Notes under the pieces: model-generated | Told to the model about the DNA's origin: nothing | What the model saw: only the letters and a program-made list of their open reading frames with translations | Databases searched by the model: none | Shown here: piece after piece, positions 30,201-62,249 of the stretch | Layout: each line of letters opens with the position of its first letter | Numbering within the stretch: position 1 is the stretch's first letter | Position numbers and translations under genes: made by a program | Source of the DNA: Aurantiochytrium sp. KH105 | Lineage: Eukaryota; Sar; Bigyra; Thraustochytrida; Thraustochytriidae | Direction: 5' to 3' | DNA: 64,000 bases | Assembly (NCBI GenBank): GCA_003116975.1 | Contig: BGKB01000034.1 | Span: 1-64,000 of the forward strand

Positions 30201-30817
30201 AGACGCATTACATTGTCATGGAGAACCTTTTCCCCCCGGATGCGGTCTTTGAAGCCAAGTTCGATCTCAAGGGTAACTTTCGGAATCGGCTTGTGGCAGC
30301 GCCCAAGAAAGGTGAGGTTCTTTTGGATCGCAACTTTCGAGCGTACACGAATGGAGTCCCTCTGTCGATGACTCCGAGCGCAAAGCGCGAGCTCCGCGAG
30401 ACCATTGAGCGCGACACGGAGTTCCTCGAGCACGATGAAATTGTAGACTACTCGTTGCTCCTCGGGATCCCGGCGCGTGGTCCCCGCGCGCCGGAAGATC
30501 ACTGGGGAATGGGGCTTGGCGGGGACGACGATGGCAACGAGGGTGTGGAGTCTGGGGCGGAGGAGAGCGCACCGGTGTTGCAGACGGGCATTATTGACTT
30601 TTTGCAGCTTTACAATTATCGCAAGATGATTGAGTCGAATGTGAAGCGTGCCGGCATGATTGCGGGACAGCTCGAGCCGACGGTGATCGAGCCAAGCAAT
30701 TACCGTGCACGCTTGCTGCGTGCTGTGGATCGCAACTTTATCGGGGTGCCTCCGCAGCCTTCCTTTGGAAAGCCTGGGTCGAATGGTGCGTCTGTTAGCA
30801 ATGCAGAAAACAAGTAG
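24269..30817 (+). CDS. PIKFYVE: FYVE-type phosphatidylinositol-3-phosphate 5-kinase (PIKfyve/Fab1)
   Basis: 2182 residues, ATG in AAGATGG. FYVE domain ~131-195 with all signature parts: WMDD, LRRHHCRACG and RVCDGC. Asp-rich runs coded by GAC repeats follow (~225 and ~293). A TCP1/GroEL-like domain lies at ~578-706 (GESILLNGVVC, LLEGAIEFSRER, GVDLLVVGSSVS). Next is the Fab1 Cys-rich region (LTWSECLKCDATTEYKVLSK). The C-terminal PIP kinase has SRSVFLKCRDGRFIVKSIS, ENLFPPDAVFEAKFDLKGNF, DYSLLLGI and GIIDFLQLYNYRK, so it looks active. Between kinase N-lobe (ending near 1575) and C-lobe (from ~1977) sits a ~400-residue low-complexity insert with poly-Gln and poly-Pro. The enzyme makes PI(3,5)P2 on endosomes and controls endolysosome traffic. 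Confidence 0.97.
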   Translation: MEYQSFGALLTNAAAGGSGGNGASTFALSTHDDPSLQKNTAGAKENLVRRKSRRSQHPAEEGAWTGTPPRQESPERGRRHVVFELNEDGEEGTNRTEGLRNADALHSGATDKSEPGHPSVFRNRRNSKLFWMDDSAAKACCNCEAPFTMLLRRHHCRACGFIFCGSCTTKRLDGADYGLTGQVRVCDGCYNYARRVKDGLSRDQRHHSHRLRAQDSSHQQGDDDDDDDDDESAGKARIPTTTAVSATASPSNDRGASQSTSAAGEDFSGARRTVASNLGRGPALRPRVHLLVDDDDDDDNDDDDDDDDENGADDRHHRHQQQYHRDHVGGSEVNAILNGRGRARAATQGGTGTEPPVRAPSTPDAAESRRNGRRPSLAKSAGRASSRRLLEPMDLVDILNMDDDGTGAAGIARLGPSRFSKRATLQRSNVHGLRARSNSWDGKPSERHEAVDEKMRSNSFKRIASRNTLVEPMQSVDSLLKAHAASDALNLGDKEAVARYQRDILGRRLDKAVQRLVASRVSALRNKRPSIILSDEVETEWKQTLTRIGKQFCSAVRPYNMDFDGYCKLVSIPGGSIGESILLNGVVCQRHVVHRLMRQHIVQPRILLLEGAIEFSRERSRISSLDTLREQEQHYMELVVHKITSMGVDLLVVGSSVSRIAQELLLEAGVSVVINVQMRLLERISRLTGAYLLPNTDLMSILPSNSDTLEDWDPRGTCKLWTMRTFSTKLTEAQKGEQFEQIAPRNQRGPPRKTLMFFEGCPPRLGASVCLRGASPTTLRHMEAILTSLITTTYTIRQQNRLFRDIGVFIGEDRLTKPALITQEDAMLEADHMQVCKVSICEKDQMHPAELKHLSFGTIGSDLTLGDYLRFRCFKSAPNVPRHSQRSGPSSTIAVNNLAASSVASATRAAGQQTTSDASSIGPSGSAGYPGSSLSTPPLYRSNSGVAGDNFAGGSQAAGAGNLASEDDPDAPQSTDFSDGGEDGGPFGGTTGAADAVYCVGEGRVYVFTGSLNKNDETHASLRDSLANIRREYVASGIRRLQNSESNRRSRALPIKNLPILTWSECLKCDATTEYKVLSKDAESLSFSRWLQLKLFYKARNVSSLFDSTQLPPPCKHSIFQDYVTYYELRGQVAGFEYEKLVPFETNLYASDPEKPRPLPRYAERWLTETVRGKHDELVDTLSVVETAFLDQKLIPYVDAIAEAEYSLAGAEKLISEVRDGVAALRGTLKDEEHLHELSVLELYRVRRNIILSVNKWNKALASLRESEARESPSVPSRGDLRRPRTFSDSDLKDDSSEDGGDSAPTPLDLTRSTSVPHHKPKSSSSGALPVPTRLRVFDAQDSLSTTSDPVKSRSMREHRASASLLDPVDLPLGFLLRGRPNLPEGFGNRIVFVYDDEPTSWIAHALNSMDHRQGLFALAEERNQMDNFQNGRWPKVMRAQLVDPRSSALALNFSDTHGLEQLNLHFSVKVYCPLQFFALRQAHLNWRRAKGGRLDPEMTFLESLSRCDHWRATGGKSRSVFLKCRDGRFIVKSISSEELDMFLSLAPSYFNHLANVSEKHLPSALLKIVGVYTVTSKEGPSSVVQQMSSKVSSRLNLADLDAGSVQALSQELNMRKISQTPRHQHADLPSPTGSPTPHPLLGKQQQQQQQQQDGSGQSLCQESRAEEALRVLQAPPTPPLGPVRALPPERRVTLASNVVEVHETADPKRADRGAPSSETSPREATKTTVSSSKPDPVVDSALDALSLRHSRDDAGGTFTTTASAANATTSAGDDDSFSQALPRLTPTVGGLASTEGATGISAKRSKGEIGIVRPATASVAATTSDGKTASTPRRGSAKLATSSSLAAGHDSGGAASGLLTPSVSVGSNASSVDVTASKKTGASASGPQTKAKLGDDGVSGVTAVMAATRESGPGAASVAADGSKVDSGGPEAEMNGGASATATPPPPLPPPPPPPQVSQAPSPPPPPPPSAPERQSKTHYIVMENLFPPDAVFEAKFDLKGNFRNRLVAAPKKGEVLLDRNFRAYTNGVPLSMTPSAKRELRETIERDTEFLEHDEIVDYSLLLGIPARGPRAPEDHWGMGLGGDDDGNEGVESGAEESAPVLQTGIIDFLQLYNYRKMIESNVKRAGMIAGQLEPTVIEPSNYRARLLRAVDRNFIGVPPQPSFGKPGSNGASVSNAENK

Positions 30818-45960: not shown

Positions 45961-48348
45961 TTACAAAGCGACCCCGGCCCTAACACCGTGCGACGAGTGC
46001 TCGCTGCTGCCAACCATAGAGCCGCCGACGAGGGAGCTGGTGTCCATAATCTTGTCCGTGGGCAGGTTGCGGTACGCGGCGTAAACACGCGTGCCAACGA
46101 CGAGAAGCGCACAAGAGACGGTGCAAAAGAAAACACAGACGGAGACGAAGAGGCTCTTGAGCGTCGGCGAGATTCCGTCGGTGAAGACGACAAAGAGACA
46201 AAAGGCCGTGAGGATGGCCACGTTGTAGTTGGAAAAGAGCATGAACTTTGCCTCACGGAAAATGAGACCCTTGAAGTTGCGCGTCTGATTGGCAAGGAGG
46301 CAGCTGATGACGACGGTGATATAGCAAAGGGCAATAATGAGCATGAGCAGAGGGGTGTTGGTGGGGCAAACGTACTCTTCAACATCGACCGAAGTAGAGG
46401 CTTGCTCCGCGACGGGGTCAAAGCCAACAACAAAGGTCCAGATGATGAGCCAGAGGCCGCAAAAGAGAAAAGCGGAGACGAGCTCGTAACGCAGGAAAAA
46501 GGTAGCCTGCTGCGTCTGGCGGTTGTCCATGATGTACTTGCTGTTCATGAGAGACACAATGGTAAACTGCTTGACGAGAAGAGTTCCGACAAAGTTGAAG
46601 AAGCCAAAGAGCATAAAGGAGAAGCGGAGGCCGCACTTGTACGAAGTGGGCACGCCGATCTCGAAGATACCCGCAATATTGAGCAGAGAGCCGCCAACAA
46701 GCATGATGATGAGCGTCTTTTGGCGCGCGGTGCGCACCGCGGCATGGTTACGGAAGATAAAGGCGCCGAGCATGCAGAGAATGTTGATGCCAACGGCGGC
46801 ACCGGCAAGCGCGATGATGACGCTGCGCTCCACGCTGGCCTCGGGAACGTAGGCGCAGTCGATGACTTCGTATACTTCCGTGGGCAGCTCGCGCGTCGTC
46901 CAGCGCGTGCGGTAGGTGCTGTAGCTGCGTTCCGACGTGCACGGGCTCGGGTCGACGTCGATGGTGACGTAGCCGTCGTCAATGTATTCCGAGGTGCTGT
47001 AGATCTCGACGACGTCGCGCGTAGCATCGGCATTGCAAGGGCAGGCGACGTAGGTAGGCTCGAGATCCTCGTCCTTCCAGGTCTGGTTGGCAAACTGGGT
47101 CTCTACAGCGCTCGTCCAGGTCTCCCAGGTGGACGTGTAGGTCTTGACCCAATCGCAGGTGACGTTGAGGAGCGAGGGCGGGGAATCTCCCATGAGGGCT
47201 GCGAGCATAATTTCTTGCTGCGTGTTGTTCTCGTACTGCATGGCAGTAATGAACTGCGCGGCATCAGGCTTGGATTCCTCAAAGGCCGTCGAGTACGCCT
47301 TGGCAAGCAGATCTGTGGGGTAGCCGCAATCTGCGTTGCCACTTGCCTCTGCCGCGACGCACTCGGGGGTGCTGATGGGCAGCAGAACGTATGTGTAGTT
47401 GGCCATTTGGAAAAGGCCATGCGGTGCCCAAAAGTACATGAGCAGGGGCGTCTCATTCTCGTCGGCGTCCAGAGCGGCCTGGACTGAGTTCTCCTCGGAT
47501 CCGGAGAATTGGATCGAGAAGTCGAGGCCAAGATTTTTGATGATTTGGTCGTCGTGCTGCGAGTAGTCCTCGACGGCGGCGAGGAAGCGGGGCTTGGGGT
47601 TCACGGTGACGCTCTGGGTGGTTGGGTCGGTACACTCCTCGGAGGTGGCGACGTTGCCATTGGCGAGGGAGGGGCCGCCGTACTCGACTGAGGCCATGCA
47701 GGGCAGGAGGCTTTCGTCCTGGTCTTCGATGTCCTTCATGCAGCAGGGGCGCGTAGTTGCGGAGTCGTCGAAGAGGGCAGACTGGGCACCGAGTTCACGC
47801 CAGTATTCGAGGGACGGGTCTGCGTCGAGCATGTAAGAGGGGATGTACCATCCGATGCGGCCCTCGAGGCCGTTCTGTCCCGCTGCGACGGCGACGCCTT
47901 GGTCGATGACGTATTCCTGGATGTTGGCCTGGTGTCCGGAGGGCCAGTACTCAAGGTTGGCGTCGATTTCGCCCGAAGCCATGAGTTCCCATACGCCCGG
48001 GGTGGTGTTCGTGCTCTGCTCGGCGACGGTACCGGAGAAGTCAGTAAAGTTGGCTGTGATTTCGACGGGGTAGCCAAGGAACTCCTCGATGAAGATCTTG
48101 GCCAGGTAGACGTTGACGAAGCTGCCTGCCCACGCGCTGATGGAGATTTTAATGGAGCATGGGTAAGTGCCGTCTTCGTCGGGCTCGCACCTGAAGGCGG
48201 CCTTTTTCTCCCAGTCGGCGTCGAAGCAGCAGTTGGCCTCATCCTTGGCGCACGAGTACATGAGCGGATCTGCCAACTGCGCCGTCGCGCTCGCGATCAG
48301 CATGACCACCAGCAGCGCCGCCGCTGCCGCCGCCGCTGCTGCCCTCAT
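45961..48348 (-). CDS. OpuAC-like ectodomain fused to class C 7TM receptor (diverged paralogue)
   Basis: 795 residues from the ATG at 48348 (ACCATGA). It starts a clean signal peptide (LLVVMLIASATAQ); the open frame continues upstream but is low complexity. The extracellular part (~25-505) starts with a Cys-rich segment (CAKDEANCCF) and resembles OpuAC/ProX substrate-binding proteins: IFIEEFLGYPVEITA, LEYWPSGH (~131) and YFWAPHGLF (~309). The 7TM core (~506-757) fits the class C/GABA-B type: TM3 CGLRFSFMLFGFFNFVGTLL, an ECL2 cysteine (YVCPTN), and FREAKFMLFSNYNVAILTAF in TM6. The cytoplasmic tail is short, with Ser/Gly. Likely a plasma-membrane receptor signalling through G proteins; the ligand is inferred from the ectodomain only. 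Confidence 0.88.
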   Translation of the reverse strand: MRAAAAAAAAALLVVMLIASATAQLADPLMYSCAKDEANCCFDADWEKKAAFRCEPDEDGTYPCSIKISISAWAGSFVNVYLAKIFIEEFLGYPVEITANFTDFSGTVAEQSTNTTPGVWELMASGEIDANLEYWPSGHQANIQEYVIDQGVAVAAGQNGLEGRIGWYIPSYMLDADPSLEYWRELGAQSALFDDSATTRPCCMKDIEDQDESLLPCMASVEYGGPSLANGNVATSEECTDPTTQSVTVNPKPRFLAAVEDYSQHDDQIIKNLGLDFSIQFSGSEENSVQAALDADENETPLLMYFWAPHGLFQMANYTYVLLPISTPECVAAEASGNADCGYPTDLLAKAYSTAFEESKPDAAQFITAMQYENNTQQEIMLAALMGDSPPSLLNVTCDWVKTYTSTWETWTSAVETQFANQTWKDEDLEPTYVACPCNADATRDVVEIYSTSEYIDDGYVTIDVDPSPCTSERSYSTYRTRWTTRELPTEVYEVIDCAYVPEASVERSVIIALAGAAVGINILCMLGAFIFRNHAAVRTARQKTLIIMLVGGSLLNIAGIFEIGVPTSYKCGLRFSFMLFGFFNFVGTLLVKQFTIVSLMNSKYIMDNRQTQQATFFLRYELVSAFLFCGLWLIIWTFVVGFDPVAEQASTSVDVEEYVCPTNTPLLMLIIALCYITVVISCLLANQTRNFKGLIFREAKFMLFSNYNVAILTAFCLFVVFTDGISPTLKSLFVSVCVFFCTVSCALLVVGTRVYAAYRNLPTDKIMDTSSLVGGSMVGSSEHSSHGVRAGVAL

Positions 48349-51300
48349 GGTGCGCGTCGCCTCGCGTCGCGTTGCCTCGCGTCGCCCGCTTTCTCTCGCT
48401 CGCCCAGGGCTCCGACGCAACAGCGCAGCGCAGCGAGAGAAAGGAAGCGGTTTTGCTACGAGTGCGCGAGCGACCGAGGGAGAGAGAGGGCGAGCAAGCA
48501 AGCTTTCTCTGCTCGCTCGCGTCGCCTCCGGATCGCCACTGCACGTGCTGTGCTCTTCCGCCGGCGTCCGGTCGCTCCGCGTGCACGCGCCGTCGCGGCA
48601 GGAAGAAAAGGCGGCTGCGGGGCGGTCGAACCGGGAAAAGAAAAAAAGAAAAGAAAAAACACGGAAGCAGGAACCGGAAGAGCAGTGGCAGCAGCAGCTT
48701 TTTAGTCTGGAATAGAACGCCAAGCCAAGCCAAGGAAAGCAATGAAGGGGAAGGAAAGGCAAGCAGCTTGAAGGGAAAGAAGGCGAGGCGAGCGCTCCTG
48801 GCTCTCCCGCGCTGCTGCGAGACTGCACAGCCTCGCTCGCTCTCGATCTCGCTCTCTCGATCTCTCGCGCTCTCGCGCGCGCTCGGACGCCCACGGCCGG
48901 ACGTGCGAACAGCCGCACGAATGGACGGAGGATGGACGTGCTGCGTGCGTCTGCACTGCGCAGGCAGATGAAATGGACGGATGGTGTGGATGGAGGAATG
49001 GACGGGATGGACGGGATGGATAGATGGATGGATGGACGGAGAGGACTGGACTGCCGCCTCCCGAAGATCGCGATCGCCACACAGGTGTATCCTACATCGA
49101 GAAAAAAAAAGTAAAAAAAAAGTGGTGGTAGTAAGGCAAGGCCAGCCAGGTCATCTAGAAACCCTGACGAACCCAACTAGCCTGCTCCGCCCGCATATAC
49201 CTCGACGCACCTTCTACGCGTTGTCCGCCAAGCGGCTCGCATCGGCCGACCGCTCGCTCACCGGCCAGCGCCGCTTGCTGCAGCTGCAGCGGCATGTCCG
49301 AGCGGCCTCGGACCGATTTTTTACGGTCGATCATCGATCGATTGATCGATCTATCTGCGCTTTCCTCCCACGCCTCCCTCTCCTCTCCTTTTCTTTTTCC
49401 CCCTTTTCTTTTCCAGCCGCCTCCCCCTACGGACCCCACACCTGCGCCCTCCGCAGCTTTTCTTTCCTCCCCCCTATTCTTACCTCCTTTCTTCCCTTTC
49501 CTCCCTCCTGCCACCTTCACGCAGAACGCCTCCACTGGGACGTACGCGATATGTCTAATCTAGGTTGCTACCCACAGTAGCGGGGATTCATGCCCACATG
49601 GGGCCCGCAGCGAAGCCAGACCGGACCGGTCTCGGGGGTGAGAAAACTCGGTGTAGGTGGCGACGGCATCTAACTCTAAAAGTAACCTACCACCGCGGAC
49701 GGCGCCGCAACCAACACAACTTGAAGCAAGCAAGCAAGCTCCGAAAGCACACGACGCGAGGCGACGCGACGCCTCGCCTCGCCGCCACTCGCTGACGTCG
49801 CGCCCTCCCTCCCGCCGTCGGAGCACCGCGCGGCACCTGCACACAGCGCAGCGCAGCGCAGCAAGGCAAGGCAAGGCAGGGCAAGGCAGGGCAAGGCAAG
49901 GCTCGCAGGAACGGCACGGCTGCGGCGCGGGCCAGAACCGGCCGGGACGCGAGGTCACTCACTGGGGGCGGCCGCCTCGCGACTCCGGCTTTGGTTGTTT
50001 CAACTAGAACCCGCCCGGCCGGCGCACGCGTGCGTGCATGCGTGCGTGCCCGCGTGGAGTGCGATGGCGTGCGCGGATGCGCGTGCGAGCGAGCGAGCGA
50101 GCGAGCGTGCATGCAGGAGCGAGCGACGCAAGGCGCAGTCGCAGTGTCGCTTTCGCAGTTCGTCGCGTGCCGCAAGTGTATAGAGGAAAGCGCATCACAA
50201 GAAGCGCCAGCCACCATAGAACGAGCTGCTGCTGCTTCGAACCGGATCGAACGGCACGCAAGGACACGAGCAGTTTCCGTCGTCATACATTATTATATTA
50301 TGATTATCCATCTCTGCTCGCAGTTCGGTCAGAACGGCGGCTTCTCGCGCGCGCTCGCGCTTGACCGAACGACCGCCGGCGAACGACCGAACGAACAACC
50401 TGCACTGCACTCGCTGCTCGCGCGTACGAACAGACCGATGAACGAACGATCGAACGAACGATCGAACGATTGATGAACGCGACGCAGGCCTGCCGGCGGC
50501 CTCAGCTCGCGGCCATCGCGCGCGTCCTGTGGTTCTGCTCGCGCGCGGGGGCAGCACGAAGAGGAACGGCTCTGGTCCGGCCGGAACCGGAACCGCGACC
50601 TGGAAGCGGCGGGCGCGCACTTTCTCTTTCTCTCTGCGCTGCTGCTGCGTGCTGTGCTGCTCTTGCTCCTGCTCCTGCTCGCTCAGTCTCGGACCGCGCG
50701 AGCTCGGATCGCGCGAGCTTGGGCGGCCTCGAAGCCGCGGCCAGGGTCGACGCGGGGCTGGCCCCGGGGGCGGCCACTCCGCGCGCGGTGGCCAGTGGCG
50801 GCCAGCCAGGTCGCGAGCAGCGCGGGTGCTTCCAGGGCCTGGCGACGAGCTCGCCATCGAGATCTCACCACACACACATATCGTGAACGAAAAAAAAACA
50901 GTTATAGGCCTGTAGCACAGGCCTACCAATGGCTACTGTCAATCAATCAGTAAACACACACGCGCGCGCGCACACACACGGACATACGCACGCAGAACCT
51001 CGCTTCCTTGACGAGTTATTGTTATTACGGCGCTGCCAATGGTAGCTGCTTCTGGCAGAGGCCGCAGCCATCGCTCAAGCTTGCATGCGTGCACCTGGCT
51101 CGCCGCCAGGCTCAGGCCGCGCGCGTGCGCTTGCTCGCTCGCTCGCTCGCTCGCTCGCTCTTGCTCGCGCTCTTGCTCTCGGCCGTGGCGGCGTCCTTCT
51201 TCCTTGACACCCTGGCTGATCGAAAGGACGAACGAACGGACGCACGCACGCATGAACGAACGAAGAAAATGCAAACTTGAACTCGAAGCCAGATTAGCCT

Positions 51301-52462
51301 AAATTAGATTGGCAAGACCGTCCGCATGCCGTGAAACCCGGTCCCTCCCTCCGCCAGCCGGACCCGACCGGGAAAAAAACGCGCGGCCCGGCCCTAGGGG
51401 AGAGGCCAAGGCCAGCGCGCAAGCGAGGCTCCCGAGCACTGCACGCATGCGCGCGCATGTGCGGGCGGGCAGGCGGGCGGGCGCCGTCGGCCAGCTGGGT
51501 CTCGTCTCGTCTCGTCCCGTCTTGTCCCGTCGCGTCTCGTCTCGTCCCGTCGCGTCTCGTCTCGTCGCGTCTTGTCCCGTCGCGTCTCGTCTCGTCTCGT
51601 CTCGCGCGGCATCTCCATCATTCGCCATCTTTTCTCGGCCTCGGCGACCTCGAGTGGTCAGAAACCCGGCTCGGCGGGCGGCTCGAGAGAGGCGCGGCGT
51701 CGCTCCGCATCGCTCCGCATCGCTTCGCATCGCTTCGCATCGCTGTCGCCGCTCGAGGCCGTGCGCTGCGCAAGAGAGCTCGAGAGAGAGAAAGAAAGTA
51801 CGTCCAACCCATGATCCAACACGCATACGAAAGCCCTTCCGTACTTGTCCATGCAGAGGTCGCACGCACGCATCACTCGCTCGCTCGCGCCGCGCCGTGC
51901 ATGCACGCCGGCCCGCCTTGAAGTTCGTTCGTTCCTCTGGCCGCCTGGCATGCCATGAACTCTGCGCTGCAGGCGGCAGCGGAGGGAGGATCGACGACGG
52001 CCGGCCGCTCGCGTTTCTTGCGTTTCTCGCGGTTCTTGTCTCCGAGCAGCCAGAGCACTTCACGCGCGCGCTGCGGGGCTGGAGAGGGACGTTCACCCTC
52101 TAACGTGCGGCCGCTTGACTTCACCGTTCGCCCGGGGCAGTGCCGGTCTTTCGAGTCTCCTCGTTTCCCTTCAAGTTGGCCTCCTCGCTCGACTGCGAGC
52201 GGATTCGGGTTGGTGCTGGGCAAAGTAAAGGACAGGTGTTATTTATAATCAGGGAAGGGATTGACGAGGACGCTGTGCGGAAGAGGGCGAGCGGGGTTGG
52301 TTGGAACGCTGCTGCCGTGAGCTTCCGATTGGCACGGGCCGCGTTGCGCCTTGCTTGGGTCATCCGGCACATCGCAGAACGGAATCGACGCCAGGCCGGC
52401 AACGAATGCTGTGAACGTGTATACAGAGAGGATCTGAAAACAAAATGAACACATGGACCAAT
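48349..52462. other. Long intergenic region, repeat-rich, no supported gene
   Basis: About 4.1 kb. Holds the 5' region of the 45961-48348 gene, GGAT-type repeats (about 48975-49038), GGCAA repeats (about 49860-49903), (GAGC)n (50090-50106), GAACGATC repeats (50440-50472), (GCTC)n (51130-51162) and a CGTCT pentamer array (51501-51605). Open frames of up to 265 codons are Arg/Ala-rich shadows of these repeats. No domain seen. Confidence 0.5.
51501..51605. repeat. CGTCT-type pentanucleotide repeat
   Basis: About 21 imperfect units (CTCGT, CCCGT, CGCGT, CTTGT) in phase. Confidence 0.95.
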
Positions 52463-54922
52463 CTATGTAGGCGATATTGCAGAGCTCGAAGCAAGGCCAG
52501 GCTTGGGTTTTATTGGAGTGCTGGGGATTTCCCTTGATCTTCTCGTCGTCGCAGCGGCAAACATGTCATGGTCAAGGTTCAAGCTCGCAGCGTACACGCG
52601 CGAGCCGACCACGAGAAGCGCGCACGACATCGTGCTAAAGAGAATGCAAAATGAAACGAACAGGCTCTTCAGCGAGGCGTCCATGCCCGGGGAAAGCGTC
52701 ACAAACAGCGAGAGACCCGTCAACACAGCCACATTGTAGTTCGAAAACAACATGAACTTGCCCTCGTTGAACACCAGCCCCGAAAGGCCTCGCGTCTGGC
52801 TCGCGAGCACGCAGCTCACAACAATCAACAGGTAGCACACGGCAATGATGAGCATCAGCAGCGTCGAGTCCGTCGGACACACGAGCTCGTCGACGTCCAA
52901 GAGCACGTCTGCGACCACCGCTTCGGGCTCAAAGCCCACGACTGCGTACCAAATGACGAAAAGAGCAAGAGCCACGAGCGTGCAGATCGTAAACTCAAAC
53001 TTCATGAACAACTGCCCACGTGAGCCTTTCCGGCGGTCATAACGCGTACGCCGCAATACCATGGTGATTATATACTGCTTGATGAGAAGCGAGCCCACAA
53101 AGTACATGAAGCCAAAGAGCAGCAGCGAAAAGCGCATCGCACACTTGACACGGGTTGGCTCGCCAATTTGAAACGTCTCTGCTCCGTTCATCAGCGCTGC
53201 GCCAAACAAAAGAATCATGAGCGTACGGATGCGAGCGCTCTTCAATGCCTTGTGCTTGCGATACGCCACGGCGAACACCAGGCAAATCAAGAGCACGAGC
53301 CATGCGATGGAAGCCAGCGTCAGAATGATGATCTCACCAGAGCTCCCAAGTGGGACATGAGCGCACTGGATCTCCTTGAGCACCTCGGTCTCCAGAAGCA
53401 TCGTGCTCCAGCGGGTCTTGTATAGCGACACATTCCGCGCCTCCGAGCACGGGTTCGGATCCACATCGATAATCACAGAGCCGTCCTCTGCATATGCAGA
53501 AGTATCGTATACGGCCACGACATCACGCAGACCGTCAGGTTTGCAATCGCAAGCCATGACCGTTGGCTCGAGAATCTCGTCTTGCCAAGTTTGACCTTCA
53601 TAACGATTCTCTACACTTTCTGTCCAGTCCGACCAGGTCTGTTCGTTGATCTTGACCCACTCACAAGCCGCTTCGTTCAGCGTCCGCGAGCTGTTGACCA
53701 AGAGCTCGTAGTGGATCTCTTCTTGCTGCACAGTCGAGTTGAACACCATCGACTCGACAAAGTGTGCCACGTCCGGCTTGCTTTCTTCCAGTGATACCGA
53801 GTATGCCTTGGCGAGCAGCTCGATCGGGTATCCGCACTTGGCGTCGCCAGACGTCTGCGCCGATCGACATTCCGCGCTGCTAAGCGGCAGCAGAAAGTCG
53901 TCGAGATCATACATGCGAAAGGCGCCGTGCGGCTTCCAAAAGTAGAACAAGAGCGGCGTTCTCGATTCATGTGCTGTCTTGATCTCCTCCATGATCTTGC
54001 TCTCCGACACTGCCAAGACGAGAGTGAGAGTCAGATTCAGGTTCCGAATAATCTGGTCGTCATGGGTCGTCCAGGTCGGCTTCCCGCCCAGAAAGCGCCC
54101 GCCCGTGGTCGGAATCTTGTGCCACGACGTGTCGGAGAAGACGTCGCATTCTGCTGTTGCGTTGGCCATGCCTCCATCCGTCACTTTCGTGCCGCCCAGA
54201 GCCTCTGTTGGAACACAAGGAGCGTTGGCGCCTTGGTCCATATCGGAACGACAGCAAGGCGCGCTCGTCGTCGAATGAGGAAAGAGACTCGCTTTGGCCG
54301 GGTCGGTGAGCGTTCGCCAGTAGTCGAGAGCCGGGTCATTCTCTTCGCCCACAAATGAGGGCATAAACCATCCGATTCGGCCCTCGATTCCATTCTCGCC
54401 GGCCAATTTAATGGTGGACTTCTCGACCACGAACTCGCGAATGTTATCTCGATGTCCCGAGGGCCAGTATTCGAGGATGACGTCGATCTCTCCGCTGCTC
54501 ATGCGGCGCATACCGCTCGGCTCAATCAGTGTGCCATTCGAAGCGTACGTATCTGACTCCTTGACAGTCCCCGTATAGTCGCTGGAATCGGCCGTGATCT
54601 CCACGGGGTACCCGAGGAACTCCTCGATGAAGATCTTGGCAACGTAGACGTTGATAAAGCTCCCAATCCAGTCGCTGACAGCGAGTCTGACGCTGCATGG
54701 GTAGCTCCCATCCTCGTCTGGTTCGCAACGAAAGCGCGATTCCATGGATGGCTTTGGCCATTTGGACTCCGCGAAGCAGCAGTTCGCCTCATCTCGAGCG
54801 CACGAGTCGACGAATGGGTCTACGCGCAGAGCTGTCGCAGGCGTCGCGGCGAGCAGCAACGCTAGGACTACGAAGGCCACGCCGCCACCGCGGCGCCTCG
54901 CTTGAGCCAGGCGTTGCTGCAT
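52463..54922 (-). CDS. OpuAC-like ectodomain fused to class C 7TM receptor (array copy A)
   Basis: 819 residues from the ATG at 54922; the longer frame begins with GTG. Signal peptide VAFVVLALLLAATPATA. Ectodomain ~34-528 has CARDEANCCF, IFIEEFLGYPVEITA, VILEYWPSGH (~150) and FYFWKPHGAFRMY (~327), the two aromatic-rich OpuAC/ProX segments. 7TM ~529-775: TM3 CAMRFSLLLFGFMYFVGSLL, ELVCPTD in ECL2, NEGKFMLFSNYNVAVLTGL. Its second intracellular loop (RRTRYDRRKGSRGQ) and tail (SLNLDHDMFAAATTRRSREI) differ from the other two array copies, while the rest of the membrane core is almost identical in DNA. Probable G-protein-coupled receptor for an OpuAC-type ligand (inference). Confidence 0.9.
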   Translation of the reverse strand: MQQRLAQARRRGGGVAFVVLALLLAATPATALRVDPFVDSCARDEANCCFAESKWPKPSMESRFRCEPDEDGSYPCSVRLAVSDWIGSFINVYVAKIFIEEFLGYPVEITADSSDYTGTVKESDTYASNGTLIEPSGMRRMSSGEIDVILEYWPSGHRDNIREFVVEKSTIKLAGENGIEGRIGWFMPSFVGEENDPALDYWRTLTDPAKASLFPHSTTSAPCCRSDMDQGANAPCVPTEALGGTKVTDGGMANATAECDVFSDTSWHKIPTTGGRFLGGKPTWTTHDDQIIRNLNLTLTLVLAVSESKIMEEIKTAHESRTPLLFYFWKPHGAFRMYDLDDFLLPLSSAECRSAQTSGDAKCGYPIELLAKAYSVSLEESKPDVAHFVESMVFNSTVQQEEIHYELLVNSSRTLNEAACEWVKINEQTWSDWTESVENRYEGQTWQDEILEPTVMACDCKPDGLRDVVAVYDTSAYAEDGSVIIDVDPNPCSEARNVSLYKTRWSTMLLETEVLKEIQCAHVPLGSSGEIIILTLASIAWLVLLICLVFAVAYRKHKALKSARIRTLMILLFGAALMNGAETFQIGEPTRVKCAMRFSLLLFGFMYFVGSLLIKQYIITMVLRRTRYDRRKGSRGQLFMKFEFTICTLVALALFVIWYAVVGFEPEAVVADVLLDVDELVCPTDSTLLMLIIAVCYLLIVVSCVLASQTRGLSGLVFNEGKFMLFSNYNVAVLTGLSLFVTLSPGMDASLKSLFVSFCILFSTMSCALLVVGSRVYAASLNLDHDMFAAATTRRSREIPSTPIKPKPGLASSSAISPT

Positions 54923-56160
54923 GCTCGCCTCGCGCAATAGACTTTTGCAAAGCAGGAGAAGACCCACGCTGTCCCAACTTGGCTACCTTCCAACCTCTGC
55001 ATCGTCACCCGTACAAGCGGGCCGTTAAATGTTACATTTGATGGGCCGGGGCCGCGCGCGCCCACGCCTGGCAATCAATTCATCAATCGATGCACGGCTC
55101 GCGACTGTGGCACGCTTTATTCCGTCAAGGCAGCGAACGTGGCCAAAGCGCAGGACAACCGAGCGCATCGCGCAATGCAAACTCTGGGGTCTTCCGTGGT
55201 CGATCGCGCGCGCCACGCCACTTGCGTGCGCCGGACCGCGCGCCGAAGCAGCAAGCGGACCAACGTGGTTGCGAACAGCACGCCGAGTTGCATCCAACCT
55301 CCCGAAGCGTTTATCCAAAACAAACAGACAGAGACACAGAAAGACAGACAATGAGGCCGTTACAATTCGGAAAAACCGTGGCGGCCACAAGGAAGAACGG
55401 GCCTACGGCGCACGTCCTTGCAACACTAATGCTCAATACGATGGAGCCATTCGGCCGCAGCCATTCGGCCGCAGCCATTTGGACAGGACAGCGATGCCTG
55501 TTCCGGTTCACAGTCAGACCCAGGCTCCAGCGGGCCCTGCAGCAGACAGCAGAAGAATTTATCAAAAGGAGTCGCCAGCCGTGCCGGGAGCAGAAAATCA
55601 CGTCCCAACTAGCGTATACCTACGAATGGGACCTCTGTATGATTCCATGTCTTCTCCCCGTTCAGGCGAGCACAAAGAAAGGCCATGCATGCGAGCAACA
55701 ACCATTCTAGCCTTGCACGTTCGTCAATCGGATCCCGATGGCCAGGCCGCCGCTTGGCCCCTTGAGCAGCTGCGCAGGACACGCCGCGCAGTGCGATAAC
55801 GGAGCGAGGTGATCTCGTGCAAGCTCGTTCGATGGTAGACCATGGCATACAGAGATCAGCAAAGTCGGGCACCATGAAACGGTCGGAACGTCGCATAACC
55901 GAGATGGAAGGAAAAATGACCGCCCAAGTTCCAGAGCCGAAAGCCTGGTCCGAGCAATTCGAGCCCTTGGCCAGATTGCGCTCCGGAGCGCCAGGAGCAT
56001 AGGTGCCTCCCAGGTGTAAACAATCCTTTGCTGTCTACCAATCGGGCCCACACATTTAACGGGGCAACACGGGCTGGAAACAAATAAAGGACGTTCTTTT
56101 GAAATGATTACGAATTGGAACGCAAGAAGAATGTTCAGGCCCATTCAAATGGTGTAAGGC
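54923..56160. other. Intergenic between array copies A and B
   Basis: 1.24 kb holding the 5' region of copy A and the 3' region of copy B. A short CATTCGGCCGCAGC repeat at about 55447-55480. Open frames (for example 55029-55799 plus) have no domain. I see no clear shared upstream motif with the other copies. Confidence 0.5.
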
Positions 56161-58614
56161 TTACTTGACTTTTGAGCTTCTCGCAACAGATGTGCGAGCT
56201 ACTGAGAGTGAGCTTTGGTCGCTCATTGATGCGGTGACAACCGTCTTGGCGAGAAGCGTCGCGTTGATATTGAAGCCAGCTGCATACACGCGCGAGCCAA
56301 CCACCAAAAGCGCGCATGACACCGTGCTAAAGAGAATGCAAAATGAAACGAACAGGCTCTTCAGCGAGGCGTCCATGCCCGGGGAAAGCGTCACAAACAG
56401 CGAGAGACCCGTCAACACAGCCACATTGTAGTTTGAAAACAACATGAACTTGCCCTCGTTGAACACCAGCCCCGAAAGGCCTCGCGTCTGGCTCGCGAGC
56501 ACGCAGCTCACAACAATCAACAGGTAGCACACGGCAATGATGAGCATCAGCAGCGTCGAGTCCGTCGGACACACGAGCTCGTCGACGTCCAAGAGCACGT
56601 CTGCGACCACCGCTTCGGGCTCAAAGCCCACGACTGCGTACCAGATGGCGAGAAGAGCAAGAGCCACGAGCGTGCAAATCGTAAACTCAAACTTCATGAA
56701 CAGCTGGCCACCCCTTTGCTTTCGCCGATTCAACTTTTGTGCGCGCTTCATGACAGAAGCAATGACGAATTGCTTGATGAGAAGCGAGCCCACAAAGTAC
56801 ATGAAGCCAAAGAGCAGCAGCGAGAAGCGCATCGCACACTTGACATGCGTTGGCTCGCCAATTTGAAACGTCTCTGCTCCGTTCATCAGCGCTGCGCCAA
56901 ACAAGAGAATCATGAGCGTACGGATGCGAGCGCTCTTCACCGCCTTGTGGCTGCGATACGCCACGACAAACACCAGGCAAATCAAGAGCACAAGCCATGC
57001 GATGGAAGCCAGCGTCAGAATGATGATCTCACCAGAGCTCCCAAGTGGGACATGAGCGCACTGGATCTCCTTGAGCACCTCGGTCTCCAGCAGCATCGTG
57101 CTCCAGCGGGTCTTGTACAGCGACACATTCCGCGCCTCTGAGCACGGGTTCGGATCCACCTCGATGATCACAGAGCCGTCCTCTGCATACGCAGAAGTAT
57201 CGTACACGGCCACGACATCACGCAGCCCATCAGGTTTGCAGTCGCAAGCCATGACCGTTGGCTCGAGGACCTCATTCTGCCACATTTCGCCTTCGTACTG
57301 ATTTTCCACGCTTTCTGTCCAGTCCGTCCAGGTCTGCTCGTTGATCTTGACCCACTCACAAGCCGCTTCGTTCAGCGTCCGCGAGCTGTTGACCAAGAGC
57401 TCGTAGTGGATCTCTTCTTGCTGCACAGTCGAGTTGAACACCATCGACTCGACAAAGTGTGCCACGTCCGGCTTGCTTTCTTCCAGTGATACCGCATATG
57501 CCTTGGCGAGCAGCTCGATCGGGTATCCGCACTTGGCGTCGCCAGACGTCTGCGCCGATCGACATTCCGCGCTGCTAAGCGGCAGCAGAAAGTCGTCGAG
57601 CTCGTACATGCGAAAGGCGCCGTGCGGCTTCCAGAAGTAGAACAAGAGCGGCGTTTTCGATGCATGTGCTGTCTTGATCTCCTCCATGATCTTGCTCTCC
57701 GACACTGCCAAGACGAGAGTGAGAGTCAGATTCAGGTTCCGAATAATCTGGTCGTCATGGGTCGTCCAGGTCGGCTTCCCGCCCAGAAAGCGCCCGCCCG
57801 TGGTCGGAATCTCGTGCCACGCCGTGTCGGAGAAGGCGTCGCATTCTGCTGTTGCGTTGGACATGCCTCCATCCGTCACTTTCGTGCCGCCCAGAGCCTC
57901 TGTTGGAACACAAGGAGCGTTGGCGCCTTGGTTCATATCGGAACGACAGCAAGGCGTGGTTTTCGCCGAATGAGGAAAGAGACTCGCTTTGGCCGGGTCG
58001 GTGAGCGTTCGCCAGTAGTCGAGAGCCGGGTCATTCTCTTCGCCCACAAATGAGGGCATAAACCATCCGATTCGGCCCTCGATTCCATTCTCGCCGGCCA
58101 ATTTAATGGTGGACTTCTCGACCACGAACTCGCGAATGTTATCTCGATGTCCCGAGGGCCAGTATTCGAGGATGACGTCGATCTCTCCGCTGCTCATGCG
58201 GCGCATACCGCTCGGCTCAATCAGTGTGCCATTCGAAGCGTACGTATCTGACTCCTTGACAGTCCCCGTGTAGTCGCTGGAATCGGCCGTGATCTCCACG
58301 GGGTACCCGAGGAACTCCTCGATGAAGATCTTGGCAACGTAGACGTTGATAAAGCTCCCAATCCAGTCGCTGACAGCGAGTCTGACGCTGCAAGGGTAGC
58401 TCCCATCCTCGTCTGGTTCGCAACGAAAGCGCGATTCCATGGATGGCTTTGGCCATTTGGACTCCGCGAAGCAGCAGTTCGCCTCATCTCGAGCGCACGA
58501 GTCGACGAATGGGTCTACGCGCAGAGCTGTCGCAGGCGTCGCGGCGAGCAGCAACGCCAGGGCTACGAAGGCTACGCCAACGCGCCGAGTCACCAAGCTC
58601 GATCGGTGTAGCAT
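56161..58614 (-). CDS. OpuAC-like ectodomain fused to class C 7TM receptor (array copy B, mosaic)
   Basis: 817 residues from the ATG at 58614 (GACATGC); the longer frame begins with TTG. Same architecture as copy A: signal peptide, OpuAC-like ectodomain (~34-527, LEYWPSGH ~150), 7TM (~528-778). The first ~440 residues match copy A closely (shared SGMRRMSSGEID, TSGDAKCG, HFVESM). From TWTDWTE onward, including TM1-TM3, the second loop (KRAQKLNRRKQRGGQ) and GFNINATLLA at the tail, it matches copy C instead. This looks like a recombination or gene-conversion product. The tail end (TASMSDQSSLSVARTSVARS) is its own and Ser-rich, possibly phosphorylated. Confidence 0.9.
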   Translation of the reverse strand: MLHRSSLVTRRVGVAFVALALLLAATPATALRVDPFVDSCARDEANCCFAESKWPKPSMESRFRCEPDEDGSYPCSVRLAVSDWIGSFINVYVAKIFIEEFLGYPVEITADSSDYTGTVKESDTYASNGTLIEPSGMRRMSSGEIDVILEYWPSGHRDNIREFVVEKSTIKLAGENGIEGRIGWFMPSFVGEENDPALDYWRTLTDPAKASLFPHSAKTTPCCRSDMNQGANAPCVPTEALGGTKVTDGGMSNATAECDAFSDTAWHEIPTTGGRFLGGKPTWTTHDDQIIRNLNLTLTLVLAVSESKIMEEIKTAHASKTPLLFYFWKPHGAFRMYELDDFLLPLSSAECRSAQTSGDAKCGYPIELLAKAYAVSLEESKPDVAHFVESMVFNSTVQQEEIHYELLVNSSRTLNEAACEWVKINEQTWTDWTESVENQYEGEMWQNEVLEPTVMACDCKPDGLRDVVAVYDTSAYAEDGSVIIEVDPNPCSEARNVSLYKTRWSTMLLETEVLKEIQCAHVPLGSSGEIIILTLASIAWLVLLICLVFVVAYRSHKAVKSARIRTLMILLFGAALMNGAETFQIGEPTHVKCAMRFSLLLFGFMYFVGSLLIKQFVIASVMKRAQKLNRRKQRGGQLFMKFEFTICTLVALALLAIWYAVVGFEPEAVVADVLLDVDELVCPTDSTLLMLIIAVCYLLIVVSCVLASQTRGLSGLVFNEGKFMLFSNYNVAVLTGLSLFVTLSPGMDASLKSLFVSFCILFSTVSCALLVVGSRVYAAGFNINATLLAKTVVTASMSDQSSLSVARTSVARSSKVK

Positions 58615-59828
58615 GTCGATGTTCTTGTTCAACAATCAACTGTGGCAATCAATGCGTCCAGCACGATTTGGGTTTGGACTCTCAAACATTTCTGCCTCGA
58701 TCTGTTCCGCTATGGCTTTGCGGGCCGTTGACGCACATTCGCAGCATTGGTTCTCATTGCATTGCAAAAAGAACGAAGGCAAAGGCCTTTCTTCTTCCGA
58801 AGCAACTTCCGGCCGAGCCATTGTTGCTGACGCCTCGCAGCCTGAAGGTAGCACGAGCAAGTCGAACTAGATCCCTCTTCCCAATTTCTAGCAAATCCGT
58901 TCGCGCTGCATATAGAATCTACTGTCATCTTATCGCCTGCGCAGAACCAGGCTAAAGAGGATTTGTCAGGCATGCTCGCGGCCGGCCCACTTGTCCATTG
59001 CACGGACGGCCCATGAGCCAGCTTCTTGCAGGCTCGTAAAAGCGCTCGCTCTCCGGGCCACTCTGCCGAGCGAGTCGAATGGATGGGGAGTGGCTGGTTC
59101 ATCCTCGTTCGACATTGTTCGTCGACGCGCGTCGATATACCACAGCTGGGCCGTACCGAGCTTGTTTGGAAACGTCCAGAACGTAACGGTGCCGACTTGG
59201 AAGCATCTCCTACCGGTCAACTTCCATAAAAGCAAACGAAGCTGCTTCGGTCGGAAAAGTTGCGACATTCAGGTCTACAAACAGGAGAGCAACTTCCAGG
59301 ACGCAAACAACGCCACATCGACCCACCTAGGGTTAAACAAAATTTAGGGGCGAGAGAATACAATCTCAAATTCGCACAGAAACAGAAAAGAAAAATGTAT
59401 AAAGTTATGAAATCAGACGGATTGCTAGTATGCATAACAGTACGCTAGGAATGCCTGGGGAATTTCGCTCCTGCTGAGACGAATTTGTCTGGTGGTGATG
59501 ATCGATGTTTTTCGTCTTGAGGATGTAGTGAAGGGCCTGATGATCACAAATGTTTGGCCGTGCTAGGCTTAGTTCGTGCTCTGAGCGATTTTAGCCGTGC
59601 CTCAATGTCGCACGAACTAGTGGCTGCTGAGATTGGATGGTTGCTGGCACAGCAAGTCTACAATAGACTTCCCATGGGTGCCAAGTTGACTTCGCCCCTT
59701 CTGTGGCGCTGCTGTCTGCTCACGTCATTGCCATTTTCCAAAGCAAAGAGAGAAAAAATGCGTTTTCTTTGTATACGTGCTGCAAAGCGACTACGTGAAA
59801 TCATTTAGGGTCGTACGGATTAAAGGTT
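58615..59828. other. Intergenic between array copies B and C
   Basis: 1.2 kb. Small frames on both strands (for example 58966-59268 minus, 100 codons) are unrecognised. A/T-richer stretch 59340-59420. No promoter motif that I can assign. Confidence 0.45.
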
Positions 59829-62249
59829 CTATTTTGCAACTGTCGTCCCAACCACTGAACTTGCAGCGGCCGAGCCACGCTGGGTGACTGGCGCAGTAGT
59901 GGTGGCTGTAGCGAGAAGCGTTGCGTTAATATTGAAGCCAGCTGCATACACGCGCGAGCCAACCACCAAAAGCGCGCATGACACCGTGCTAAAGAGAATG
60001 CAAAATGAAACGAACAGGCTCTTCAGCGAGGCGTCCATGCCCGGGGAAAGCGTCACAAACAGCGAGAGACCCGTCAACACAGCCACATTGTAGTTCGAAA
60101 ACAACATGAACTTGCCCTCGTTGAACACCAGCCCCGAAAGACCTCGCGTCTGGCTCGCGAGCACGCAGCTCACAACAATCAACAAGTAGCACACGGCAAT
60201 GATGAGCATCAGCAGCGTCGAGTCCGTCGGACACACGAGCTCGTCGACGTCCAGCAGCACGTCTGCGACCACCGCTTCGGGCTCAAAGCCCACGACTGCG
60301 TACCAGATGGCGAGAAGAGCAAGAGCCACGAGCGTGCAGATCGTAAACTCAAACTTCATGAACACCTGACCGCCCTTCTTCTTGCGCCGATCCAACTTTT
60401 GTGCGCGCTTCATGACAGAAGCAATGACGAATTGCTTGATGAGAAGCGAGCCCACAAAGTAAATGAAGCCAAAGAGCAGCAGCGAGAAGCGCATCGCACA
60501 CTTGACATGCGTTGGCTCGCCAATTTGAAACGTCTCTGCTCCATTCATCAGCGCTGCGCCAAACAAGAGAATCATGAGCGTACGGATGCGAGCGCTCTTC
60601 ACCGCCTTGTGGCTGCGATACGCCACGACAAACACCAGGCAAATCAAGAGCACGAGCCATGCGATGGAAGCCAAAGCTAGAATGATGATCTCACCAGAGC
60701 TCCCAAGTGGGACATGAGCGCACTGGATCTCCTTGAGCACCTCGGTCTCCAGCAGCATCGTGCTCCAACGGGTCTTGTATAGCGACACATTCCGCGCCTC
60801 CGAGCACGGGTTCGGATCCACCTCGATAATCACAGAGCCGTCCTCTGCATACGCAGAAGTATCGTACACGGCCACGACATCACGCAGCCCATCGGGTTTG
60901 CAGTCGCAAGCCATGACCGTTGGCTCGAGAACCTCATCTTGCCACATTTCACCTTCGTACTGGCGCACAACGCTCTCTGTCCAGTCCGTCCAGGTCTGCT
61001 CGTTGATCTTGACCCACTCACAAGCCGCTTCATTCAGCGTCCGCGAGCTGTTGACCAAGAGCTCGTAGTGGATCTCTTCTTGTTGCACAGTAGAGTTGAA
61101 TACCATGGCGCCAACAAAGTGTGCCACGTCTGGCTTGCTTTGCTCCAATGATACCGAGTATGCCTTGGCAAGCAGCTCAATTGGGTATCCGCAGTCGGCG
61201 TCACCACTTTCCTGCGCCGATCGACATTCCGCGCTGCTGAGCGGCAGCAGAAAGTCGTCAAAGTCGTACATGCGAAAGGCGCCATGCGGCTTCCAAAAAT
61301 AGAACAAGAGTGGTGTTCTTGATGTGTGGGCAGTCTCAATTTCCTCCATGATCTTCTCCTCGGAGCCCGCAAAGACAAGAGTGAGAGACAGATTCAGGTT
61401 CCGAATAATCTGGTCGTCATGGGTCGTCCAGGTCGGCTGTCCGCCCAGAAAGCGCCCGCCCGTGGTCGGAATCTCGTGCCACGCCGTGACCGACACGGCG
61501 TCACACTCGTCCATTGCATTGGCCATGCCTCCATCCGCCACTTTCGTGCCGCCCAGAGCCTCTGTTGGAACACAAGGAGCGTTGGCGCCTTGGTCCATAT
61601 CGGAACGACAGCAAGGCGCGCTCGTCGTCGAATGAGGAAAGAGACTCGCTTTGGCCGGGTCGGTGAGCGTTCGCCAGTAGTCGAGAGCCGGGTCATTGTC
61701 TTCGCCTACGAACGAGGGCATGAACCATCCGATTCGGCCCTCGATTCCATTCTCGCCGGCCGTCTTCACGGTCCCGCGTTCCACGACGAACTCGCGAATG
61801 TTATCTCGATGTCCCGAAGGCCAGTATTCGAGAATGACGTCGACGTCTCCGCTCTCAAGGAGTCTCCATCCGCTCGGCTCGACCAACGTCCCGTTTTCCG
61901 CGTAAACATCTGACTCCCTAACAGTCCCCGTGTAGTCGCTGGAATCGGCCGTGATCTCCACGGGGTACCCGAGGAACTCCTCGATGAAGATCTTGGCAAC
62001 GTAGACGTTGATAAAGCTCCCTATCCAGTCGCTGACAGCGAGTCTGACGCTGCATGGGTAGCTCCCGTCTTCGTCTGGTTCGCAGCGAAAGCGCGACTCC
62101 ATGGTTGGTTTTGGCCATTTCGACTCCGCGAAGCAGCAGTTCGCCTCATTTCGAGCGCACGAATCGACGAGCGGGTCCGCCCGCAGAGCTGTCGCAGGCG
62201 TCGCGGCGAGCAGAAGCGCGAAAGCTACAGCGAACGAACGTGACCGCAT
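59829..62249 (-). CDS. OpuAC-like ectodomain fused to class C 7TM receptor (array copy C)
   Basis: 806 residues, ATG at 62249 in AGGATGC, directly starting the signal peptide (FAVAFALLLAATPATA). Ectodomain ~24-519 with VILEYWPSGH (~140) and FYFWKPHGAFRMY; 7TM ~520-770. It differs from copies A and B in a cluster of ectodomain positions near the first ligand segment (VYAENGTLVEPSGWRLLESG against TYASNGTLIEPSGMRRMSSG), so ligand preference may differ. Loop 2 is KRAQKLDRRKKKGGQ; the tail ends TTAPVTQRGSAAASSVVGTT. Lies at the upstream end of the visible array. Confidence 0.9.
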   Translation of the reverse strand: MRSRSFAVAFALLLAATPATALRADPLVDSCARNEANCCFAESKWPKPTMESRFRCEPDEDGSYPCSVRLAVSDWIGSFINVYVAKIFIEEFLGYPVEITADSSDYTGTVRESDVYAENGTLVEPSGWRLLESGDVDVILEYWPSGHRDNIREFVVERGTVKTAGENGIEGRIGWFMPSFVGEDNDPALDYWRTLTDPAKASLFPHSTTSAPCCRSDMDQGANAPCVPTEALGGTKVADGGMANAMDECDAVSVTAWHEIPTTGGRFLGGQPTWTTHDDQIIRNLNLSLTLVFAGSEEKIMEEIETAHTSRTPLLFYFWKPHGAFRMYDFDDFLLPLSSAECRSAQESGDADCGYPIELLAKAYSVSLEQSKPDVAHFVGAMVFNSTVQQEEIHYELLVNSSRTLNEAACEWVKINEQTWTDWTESVVRQYEGEMWQDEVLEPTVMACDCKPDGLRDVVAVYDTSAYAEDGSVIIEVDPNPCSEARNVSLYKTRWSTMLLETEVLKEIQCAHVPLGSSGEIIILALASIAWLVLLICLVFVVAYRSHKAVKSARIRTLMILLFGAALMNGAETFQIGEPTHVKCAMRFSLLLFGFIYFVGSLLIKQFVIASVMKRAQKLDRRKKKGGQVFMKFEFTICTLVALALLAIWYAVVGFEPEAVVADVLLDVDELVCPTDSTLLMLIIAVCYLLIVVSCVLASQTRGLSGLVFNEGKFMLFSNYNVAVLTGLSLFVTLSPGMDASLKSLFVSFCILFSTVSCALLVVGSRVYAAGFNINATLLATATTTAPVTQRGSAAASSVVGTTVAK

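Follow-up and report, generated by a model that had tools for sequence, protein, structure and literature searches.

Class C G-protein-coupled receptors (GPCRs) of metazoans, such as GABA-B, mGlu, GPR158/mGlyR and CaSR, share the class C seven-helix core, and in the published material available their ectodomains are of the ANF type or Cache, not OpuAC. Dictyostelium class C receptors with a BMP ectodomain, as far as the available sources describe them, are alike in setting a bacterial-type binding protein on a protist class C core; their BMP domain, however, belongs to Pfam clan Periplas_BP (CL0144), whereas OpuAC belongs to clan PBP (CL0177). The same fusion as the one described below has been found in Allomyces, an aquatic zoosporic eukaryote. 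In the accessible sections of Krishnan et al. 2012 (PMC3251606), OpuAC (PF04069) is assigned to the ectodomain of six Allomyces macrogynus class C (Glutamate family) receptors, and SBP_bac_1, LysR_substrate and PBP_like_2 domains are assigned to fungal class C receptors. The OpuAC-class C architecture is already published, from a fungus, and the first-pass annotation of the present locus, which took a fold other than the LIV-binding type on a class C core to be new, was mistaken on this point. OpuAC is absent from the main text of a 2025 survey of choanoflagellate and related receptors (PMC12716839), and no further report of an OpuAC-class C fusion appeared in the titles and abstract openings searched, a literature in which subscription papers and preprints were mostly outside the range.

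TmoX (4xz6), DmpX (7yle) and ChoX (2reg) are soluble ABC-transporter proteins of the OpuAC family that, according to the published parts available, hold quaternary ammonium or sulfonium compounds in an aromatic box. Here we describe four genes, P1 to P4, of the thraustochytrid Aurantiochytrium sp. KH105. Judged from their sequences, they rather probably encode cell-surface osmolyte receptors of the class C GPCR type with a bacterial-type OpuAC outer domain. The Allomyces receptors differ in coming from a fungus, not a stramenopile, and the accessible sections of PMC3251606 contain no analysis of pocket, subfamily or ligand. What is new, within the reach of our searches, is the lineage, the subfamily of bacterial proteins involved and the fact that the aromatic cage has been kept.

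Four fused receptor genes and their copies

The window is the whole 64-kb stretch of DNA analysed (64,000 nt). As shown by ORF and Pfam analysis, the four genes lie in it on the minus strand as uninterrupted, intronless ORFs of 795-819 residues. P1 (795 aa), the most divergent copy, occupies positions 45961..48348, with its SBP (OpuAC) ectodomain at 47074..48153 and its class C 7TM core (7tm_3, PF00003) at 46102..46824. The corresponding positions are 52463..54922, 53582..54691 and 52607..53335 for P2 (819 aa), 56161..58614, 57277..58386 and 56299..57030 for P3 (817 aa), and 59829..62249, 60939..62048 and 59961..60692 for P4 (806 aa); the ectodomain limits, drawn from PF04069 and alignments, are approximate in all four. 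The putative starts are the first in-frame ATG codons (48348, 54922, 58614 and 62249), and each is followed by a hydrophobic N-terminal segment that is likely to be a signal peptide. This segment is followed in each protein by the OpuAC domain, a Cys-rich linker and the class C seven-helix core.

The first-pass annotation had proposed a cluster of four genes between 45961 and 62249 that join an OpuAC ectodomain to a class C core, and the profile searches bear this out for every one of the four intact ORFs. OpuAC (PF04069) was found at 61-67 bits (E 1.5e-16 to 3e-18) and 7tm_3 (PF00003) at 67-105 bits (E 2.8e-18 to 5.9e-30), against curated cut-offs of 21.2 and 33.5 bits, respectively. The PF04069 match falls into two stretches per protein that cover both halves of the domain, which in P1 are profile positions 31-113 and 114-241 of 257. 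The SBP region of P1 extends over approximately residues 66-425 and includes a Cys-containing insert of 50-60 residues. The motifs and cysteines quoted in the same annotation were also recovered. LEYWPSGH is present in all eight receptors (the four window proteins and their likely alleles), YFWxPHG likewise (YFWAPHG in two, YFWKPHG in six), and the TM3 and ECL2 cysteines are invariant. NEGKFMLFSNYN precedes TM6 in six of the eight, and P1 and its allele read REAKFMLFSNYN instead.

The local expansion proposed earlier is seen in the identities, which are 85-91% among P2, P3 and P4 over aligned stretches and 47-49% between each of them and P1. No fifth copy was found in the window by tblastn of the four proteins (E <= 1e-3). 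A search of the assembly (76.0 Mb, 367 contigs), conducted exon by exon at E <= 1e-3, gave ten OpuAC matches in eight genes, every one of which is a receptor with a 7TM core. The four additional genes are likely alleles of P1 to P4; three of them sit on contig C258, in the same relative order, and one on C204. P1 and its likely allele L008 are 98% identical. Contigs are apparently paired in this way, which suggests that two haplotypes are represented in the assembly. Although the mitochondrial cox1 locus is 37.6% G+C, TTA is absent from the first 531 codons of its open frame, and TTA TTA then follows near the end; in NCBI table 23, the Thraustochytrium mitochondrial code, TTA is a stop, and this codon usage points to a thraustochytrid (Labyrinthulomycetes, stramenopiles). 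The window also contains an ORF of 2182 aa at 24269-30817 that resembles, by eye, a PIKfyve/Fab1-type lipid kinase with a FYVE finger.

Selection between the presumed alleles is, by our estimates, purifying, with dN/dS in the four pairs of 0.10-0.19 for the SBP, 0.01-0.20 for the 7TM core and a looser 0.30-0.87 for the Cys-containing insert. At the level of the DNA the four window genes are confirmed as real, intact and under selection. Between P2 and P3, dS was 0.025 in the SBP, 0.368 in the linker and 0.197 in the 7TM core, and the SBP rows of their alleles (L003 and L004) were identical in the tree. Silent sites are nearly identical in the SBP and differ in the linker and core, a pattern that points to gene conversion by which the sensors are kept alike and the cores are left to differ. 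This conversion (window 52463-58614; L003/L004) likely ends near the SBP-linker junction, and the tails have diverged too. The P2/P3 differences in the SBP comprise 14 amino-acid-changing and six silent ones (dN/dS 0.68), and those in the insert eight and one (dN/dS 2.64). The SBP differences do not fit simple constraint and are too few to be read as positive selection.

Bacterial relatives and the predicted ligand pocket of the ectodomain

Among 30 plasmid records with a tblastn match, the best relative of the ectodomain was a Nonomuraea protein (25.8% identity, E 4e-22). A pattern scan of bacterial genome contigs, with recruiting patterns taken from a two-sequence alignment, gave 225 matches, of which 75 were confirmed, at 73 loci. 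The top loci were two from Chloroflexota, L072 (31%, E 2e-50) and L073 (33%, E 2e-46), values that refer to the best segment, with E relative to the candidates only. They were followed mostly by Actinomycetota and by one Myxococcota protein, L085. L072, L073 and L085 represent a Chloroflexota/Myxococcota OpuAC subfamily with the WPSGH motif and a pocket Ile replacing the usual Glu. Viral contigs scanned with the four-receptor alignment gave 21 pattern matches, none of which was confirmed.

In a tree of 36 rows, comprising the eight receptors and 28 of the 79 aligned bacterial rows, the receptors formed a single clade (support 100/100), and a branch with support 100/99 separated the receptors and 23 bacteria from five alphaproteobacterial plasmid proteins. 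By its sequence relationships the ectodomain groups with binding proteins of Chloroflexota, Myxococcota and Actinomycetota. The nearest bacterial branch is an open fork and the receptor stem is long (1.26), with a long-branch warning, and we therefore name no donor. The surroundings of four bacterial loci were scanned: a binding-protein-dependent permease was found near three (L072, L073 and L114), and none among the two neighbouring ORFs scanned at L085. The L072 permease, the sole one checked, passed the NCBIfam cut-offs for a choline ABC permease and for ProW. Judged by these neighbours, the bacterial subfamily would seem to supply a component of ABC importers for quaternary amines.

The receptors differ from TmoX, DmpX and ChoX in their added cysteines, the insert and the 7TM core. 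The P1 ectodomain contains 16 cysteines. Cys 330 and Cys 341 are common to all 79 bacterial rows, and the last four fall outside the bacterial domain, in the linker that leads to TM1. Nine of the ten further cysteines tested have no bacterial counterpart; the tenth, C33, aligns with a Cys in 68 of the 79 rows, probably a chance alignment with the lipoprotein cysteine.

A profile of the eight receptors matched TmoX (4xz6, E 8.3e-14) and DmpX (7yle, E 2.8e-4) over the ectodomain, among the best 60 of 72 matches to solved structures. The contacts reported in the available portions of the respective papers are W55, W102, F106, E131, W177, F220 and W222 for trimethylamine N-oxide (TMAO) in TmoX (PMC8918994) and W35, T64, W84, E113, W152, A153, Y200 and W202 for DMSP in DmpX (PMC10030565). 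These positions were mapped by phmmer alignments to 4xz6 and 7yle together with the family alignment. The aromatic cage suggested by the first-pass annotation is borne out by this mapping, with all four box positions aromatic in all eight receptors: W55, W102 and W222 of TmoX correspond to W in 8/8, and W177 to W in six and Y in two. The position of TmoX F220 and DmpX Y200 is Y in all eight, a Tyr as in DmpX. In contrast to TmoX and DmpX, the pocket glutamate (E131 and E113, respectively) is gone and replaced by I in 8/8, and the F106 position is H in 8/8. As aligned, the receptors keep the aromatic box and lose the acidic contact. TMAO itself is unlikely as a ligand because E131 is replaced by Ile and F106 by His in every receptor, and it was disfavoured as a candidate. 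NCBIfam choline-binding TIGR03414 gave 25-28 bits in P1 and P4, the two proteins scanned, against a cut-off of 379.

The same columns were read in the 73 bacterial loci. The W55 and W102 columns are W in all 73, the W177 column is F in 49, Y in 21 and W in three, the W222 column is Y in 57 and W in 16, and the F220 column is Y in 72 and Q in one. The F106 column is H in 73 and the E131 column I in 72 and L in one, a conservation that is inflated because both columns sit in the recruiting patterns. P4 and L072 are identical at 7/7 pocket positions against 105/281 over the domain (hypergeometric 0.0009), and P1 and L072 at 6/7 against 106/281 (hypergeometric 0.013), two of the seven positions falling inside the recruiting patterns in both comparisons. 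P1 and P4 agree at 6/7 against 164/358, mildly above background (hypergeometric 0.04).

The seven-helix core and class C receptors of the genome

Seven non-overlapping hydropathy peaks, obtained after overlapping windows had been merged by hand, cover the 7tm_3 region in each of the four proteins. Among the best 60 of 72 structure matches, the core of the eight-receptor profile matched GABA-B2 (E 2.5e-8), mGlu4 (1e-5), mGlu1 (5.4e-5) and GPR158 (6e-4). The Cys of TM3 and ECL2, the TM3 Lys and the TM6 Glu (C572, C661, K593 and E699 of P1) are invariant in 8/8 and are the same letters in mGlu1; we take them to be the TM3-ECL2 cysteine pair and the cytoplasmic lock formed by Lys and Glu. In TM6, P1 has T714 where mGlu1 has its Trp, and neither this Trp nor the TM7 Pro-Lys pair is kept, the receptors reading GSRVY or GTRVY in TM7. 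Both are motifs of animal mGlu receptors. GABA-B receptors likewise do without the TM6 Trp, and for this reason it was not treated as family-defining.

The assembly gave 69 matches to the class C core, all over the 7tm_3 cut-off. Of 46 G-alpha matches 27 were over the cut-off, two of them with one in-frame TGA; this amounts to about 14 G-alpha genes per haplotype if pairs are alleles. Two contigs (C143:217621-240713 and C77:218069-240790) each carry three consecutive loci that match BCCT (betaine/choline/carnitine) transporters, and two contigs carry two SNF loci each. In the available part of a 2018 thraustochytrid paper (PMC6050695), class C domains (IPR017978, presumably the class C core) and G-protein domains are reported as enriched in thraustochytrids; IPR007210 is absent from its main text.

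For a census, 30 of the 69 class C matches were taken as loci, the other 39 including the eight OpuAC receptors. Twenty of the 30 were extended with longer flanks and ten of these were scanned with Pfam. The ten ectodomains were assigned to ANF (three), PstS-like PBP_like_2 (two) and the Cache type (three, one above the cut-off and two weak), with two left without assignment. On the class C core, sCache_2 reached E 6.2e-6 in L041, just above the cut-off, and was weaker in L042 and L044. L045 and L052 carry a PBP_like_2 ectodomain (E 2.1e-21 and 4.2e-16) on a class C core, and L054, L057 and L058 were placed with them by likeness. They add a second SBP type to those found on class C cores in this genome and may sense phosphate or an anion. 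Among the 24 cores of a tree in which rows outside the Pfam scan were labelled by visible likeness, the OpuAC, Cache and PstS-like sets each formed one group and the ANF set did not. From this grouping, the OpuAC, Cache and PstS-like sensors each seem to have been joined once in the lineage.

Alternative readings and biological meaning

The fusion of unrelated genes by an assembly artefact or bacterial contamination has next to no probability and was rejected. The domain family is of bacterial origin, as such a reading would expect, but the same fusion recurs in a total of eight intact ORFs, including four likely alleles, spread over three contigs, and 7tm_3 was detected in none of 14 control genomes. 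A transporter fed by its binding domain is nearly as improbable. Bacterial single chains do join an OpuAC-type domain to a permease (PDB 7ahc and 3l6g, by title), but here the core matches 7tm_3 in 4/4 proteins, the Pfam scan at E <= 10 listed no family of permeases, and the eight-receptor profile matches class C structures among the best 60 of 72 matches; this reading was also rejected. The proteins might instead be non-signalling or ligand-independent at the surface, the ectodomain serving adhesion, decoy binding or dimerisation and the core lacking G-protein coupling. The missing TM6 and TM7 hallmarks of animal class C cores and the mostly amino-acid-changing P2/P3 ectodomain differences would agree with this. 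We consider it improbable, given the low dN/dS of SBP and 7TM in all four allele pairs, the invariant TM3 Lys, TM6 Glu and TM3/ECL2 Cys and a genome rich in G-alpha genes.

A weightier alternative, which we still think unlikely, keeps the receptor mechanism and places the ligand outside the osmolyte class, as the OpuAC family binds other amines and specificity may have shifted. It is favoured by the lost glutamate contact, the histidine at the F106 position, and the insert and receptor-specific cysteines of the ectodomain. Histidine-binding HisX is counted among OpuAC-domain proteins in a published figure legend, and an ergothioneine ABC transporter is reported in an abstract. Against it stand the four aromatic box positions in all eight receptors and the identity of P4 and L072 at every pocket position. 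Taken together, the retained cage, the lineage and the subfamily make a quaternary-ammonium or sulfonium ligand a testable prediction.

For the osmolyte-receptor reading of P1 to P4 that we prefer, we infer fold closure, ligand, coupling and biological role as follows. The ectodomain, whose two-lobe fold is predicted from homology, would close around a small osmolyte of the quaternary-ammonium or sulfonium type (glycine betaine, choline, carnitine, DMSP or a related compound) seated in its aromatic box. The Cys-rich linker would relay the closure of the lobes to the seven helices of the core, and these would then switch on a heterotrimeric G protein. The protist, perhaps as swimming zoospores, would thereby detect osmolytes, and the BCCT-type transporters may import the same ones. 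Zoospore chemotaxis of thraustochytrids is on record, in a title cited in PMC12221091. More tentatively, and with some doubt, the genes could be GPCRs for marine methylated osmolytes (of the glycine betaine, choline or DMSP type), derived from a captured OpuAC of the Chloroflexota/Actinomycetota type and guiding zoospores or tuning uptake. Betaine- and DMSP-type compounds are abundant in the sea, and to our knowledge no GPCR is known for them.

The fused receptor, with its aromatic cage retained, would allow the ligand of a protist GPCR to be predicted concretely. It would also serve as a natural experiment on whether a class C core can be driven by a binding protein from another Pfam clan. 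With OpuAC, ANF, PstS-like and Cache-type sensors within one genome, class C cores appear to take bacterial-type sensors freely.
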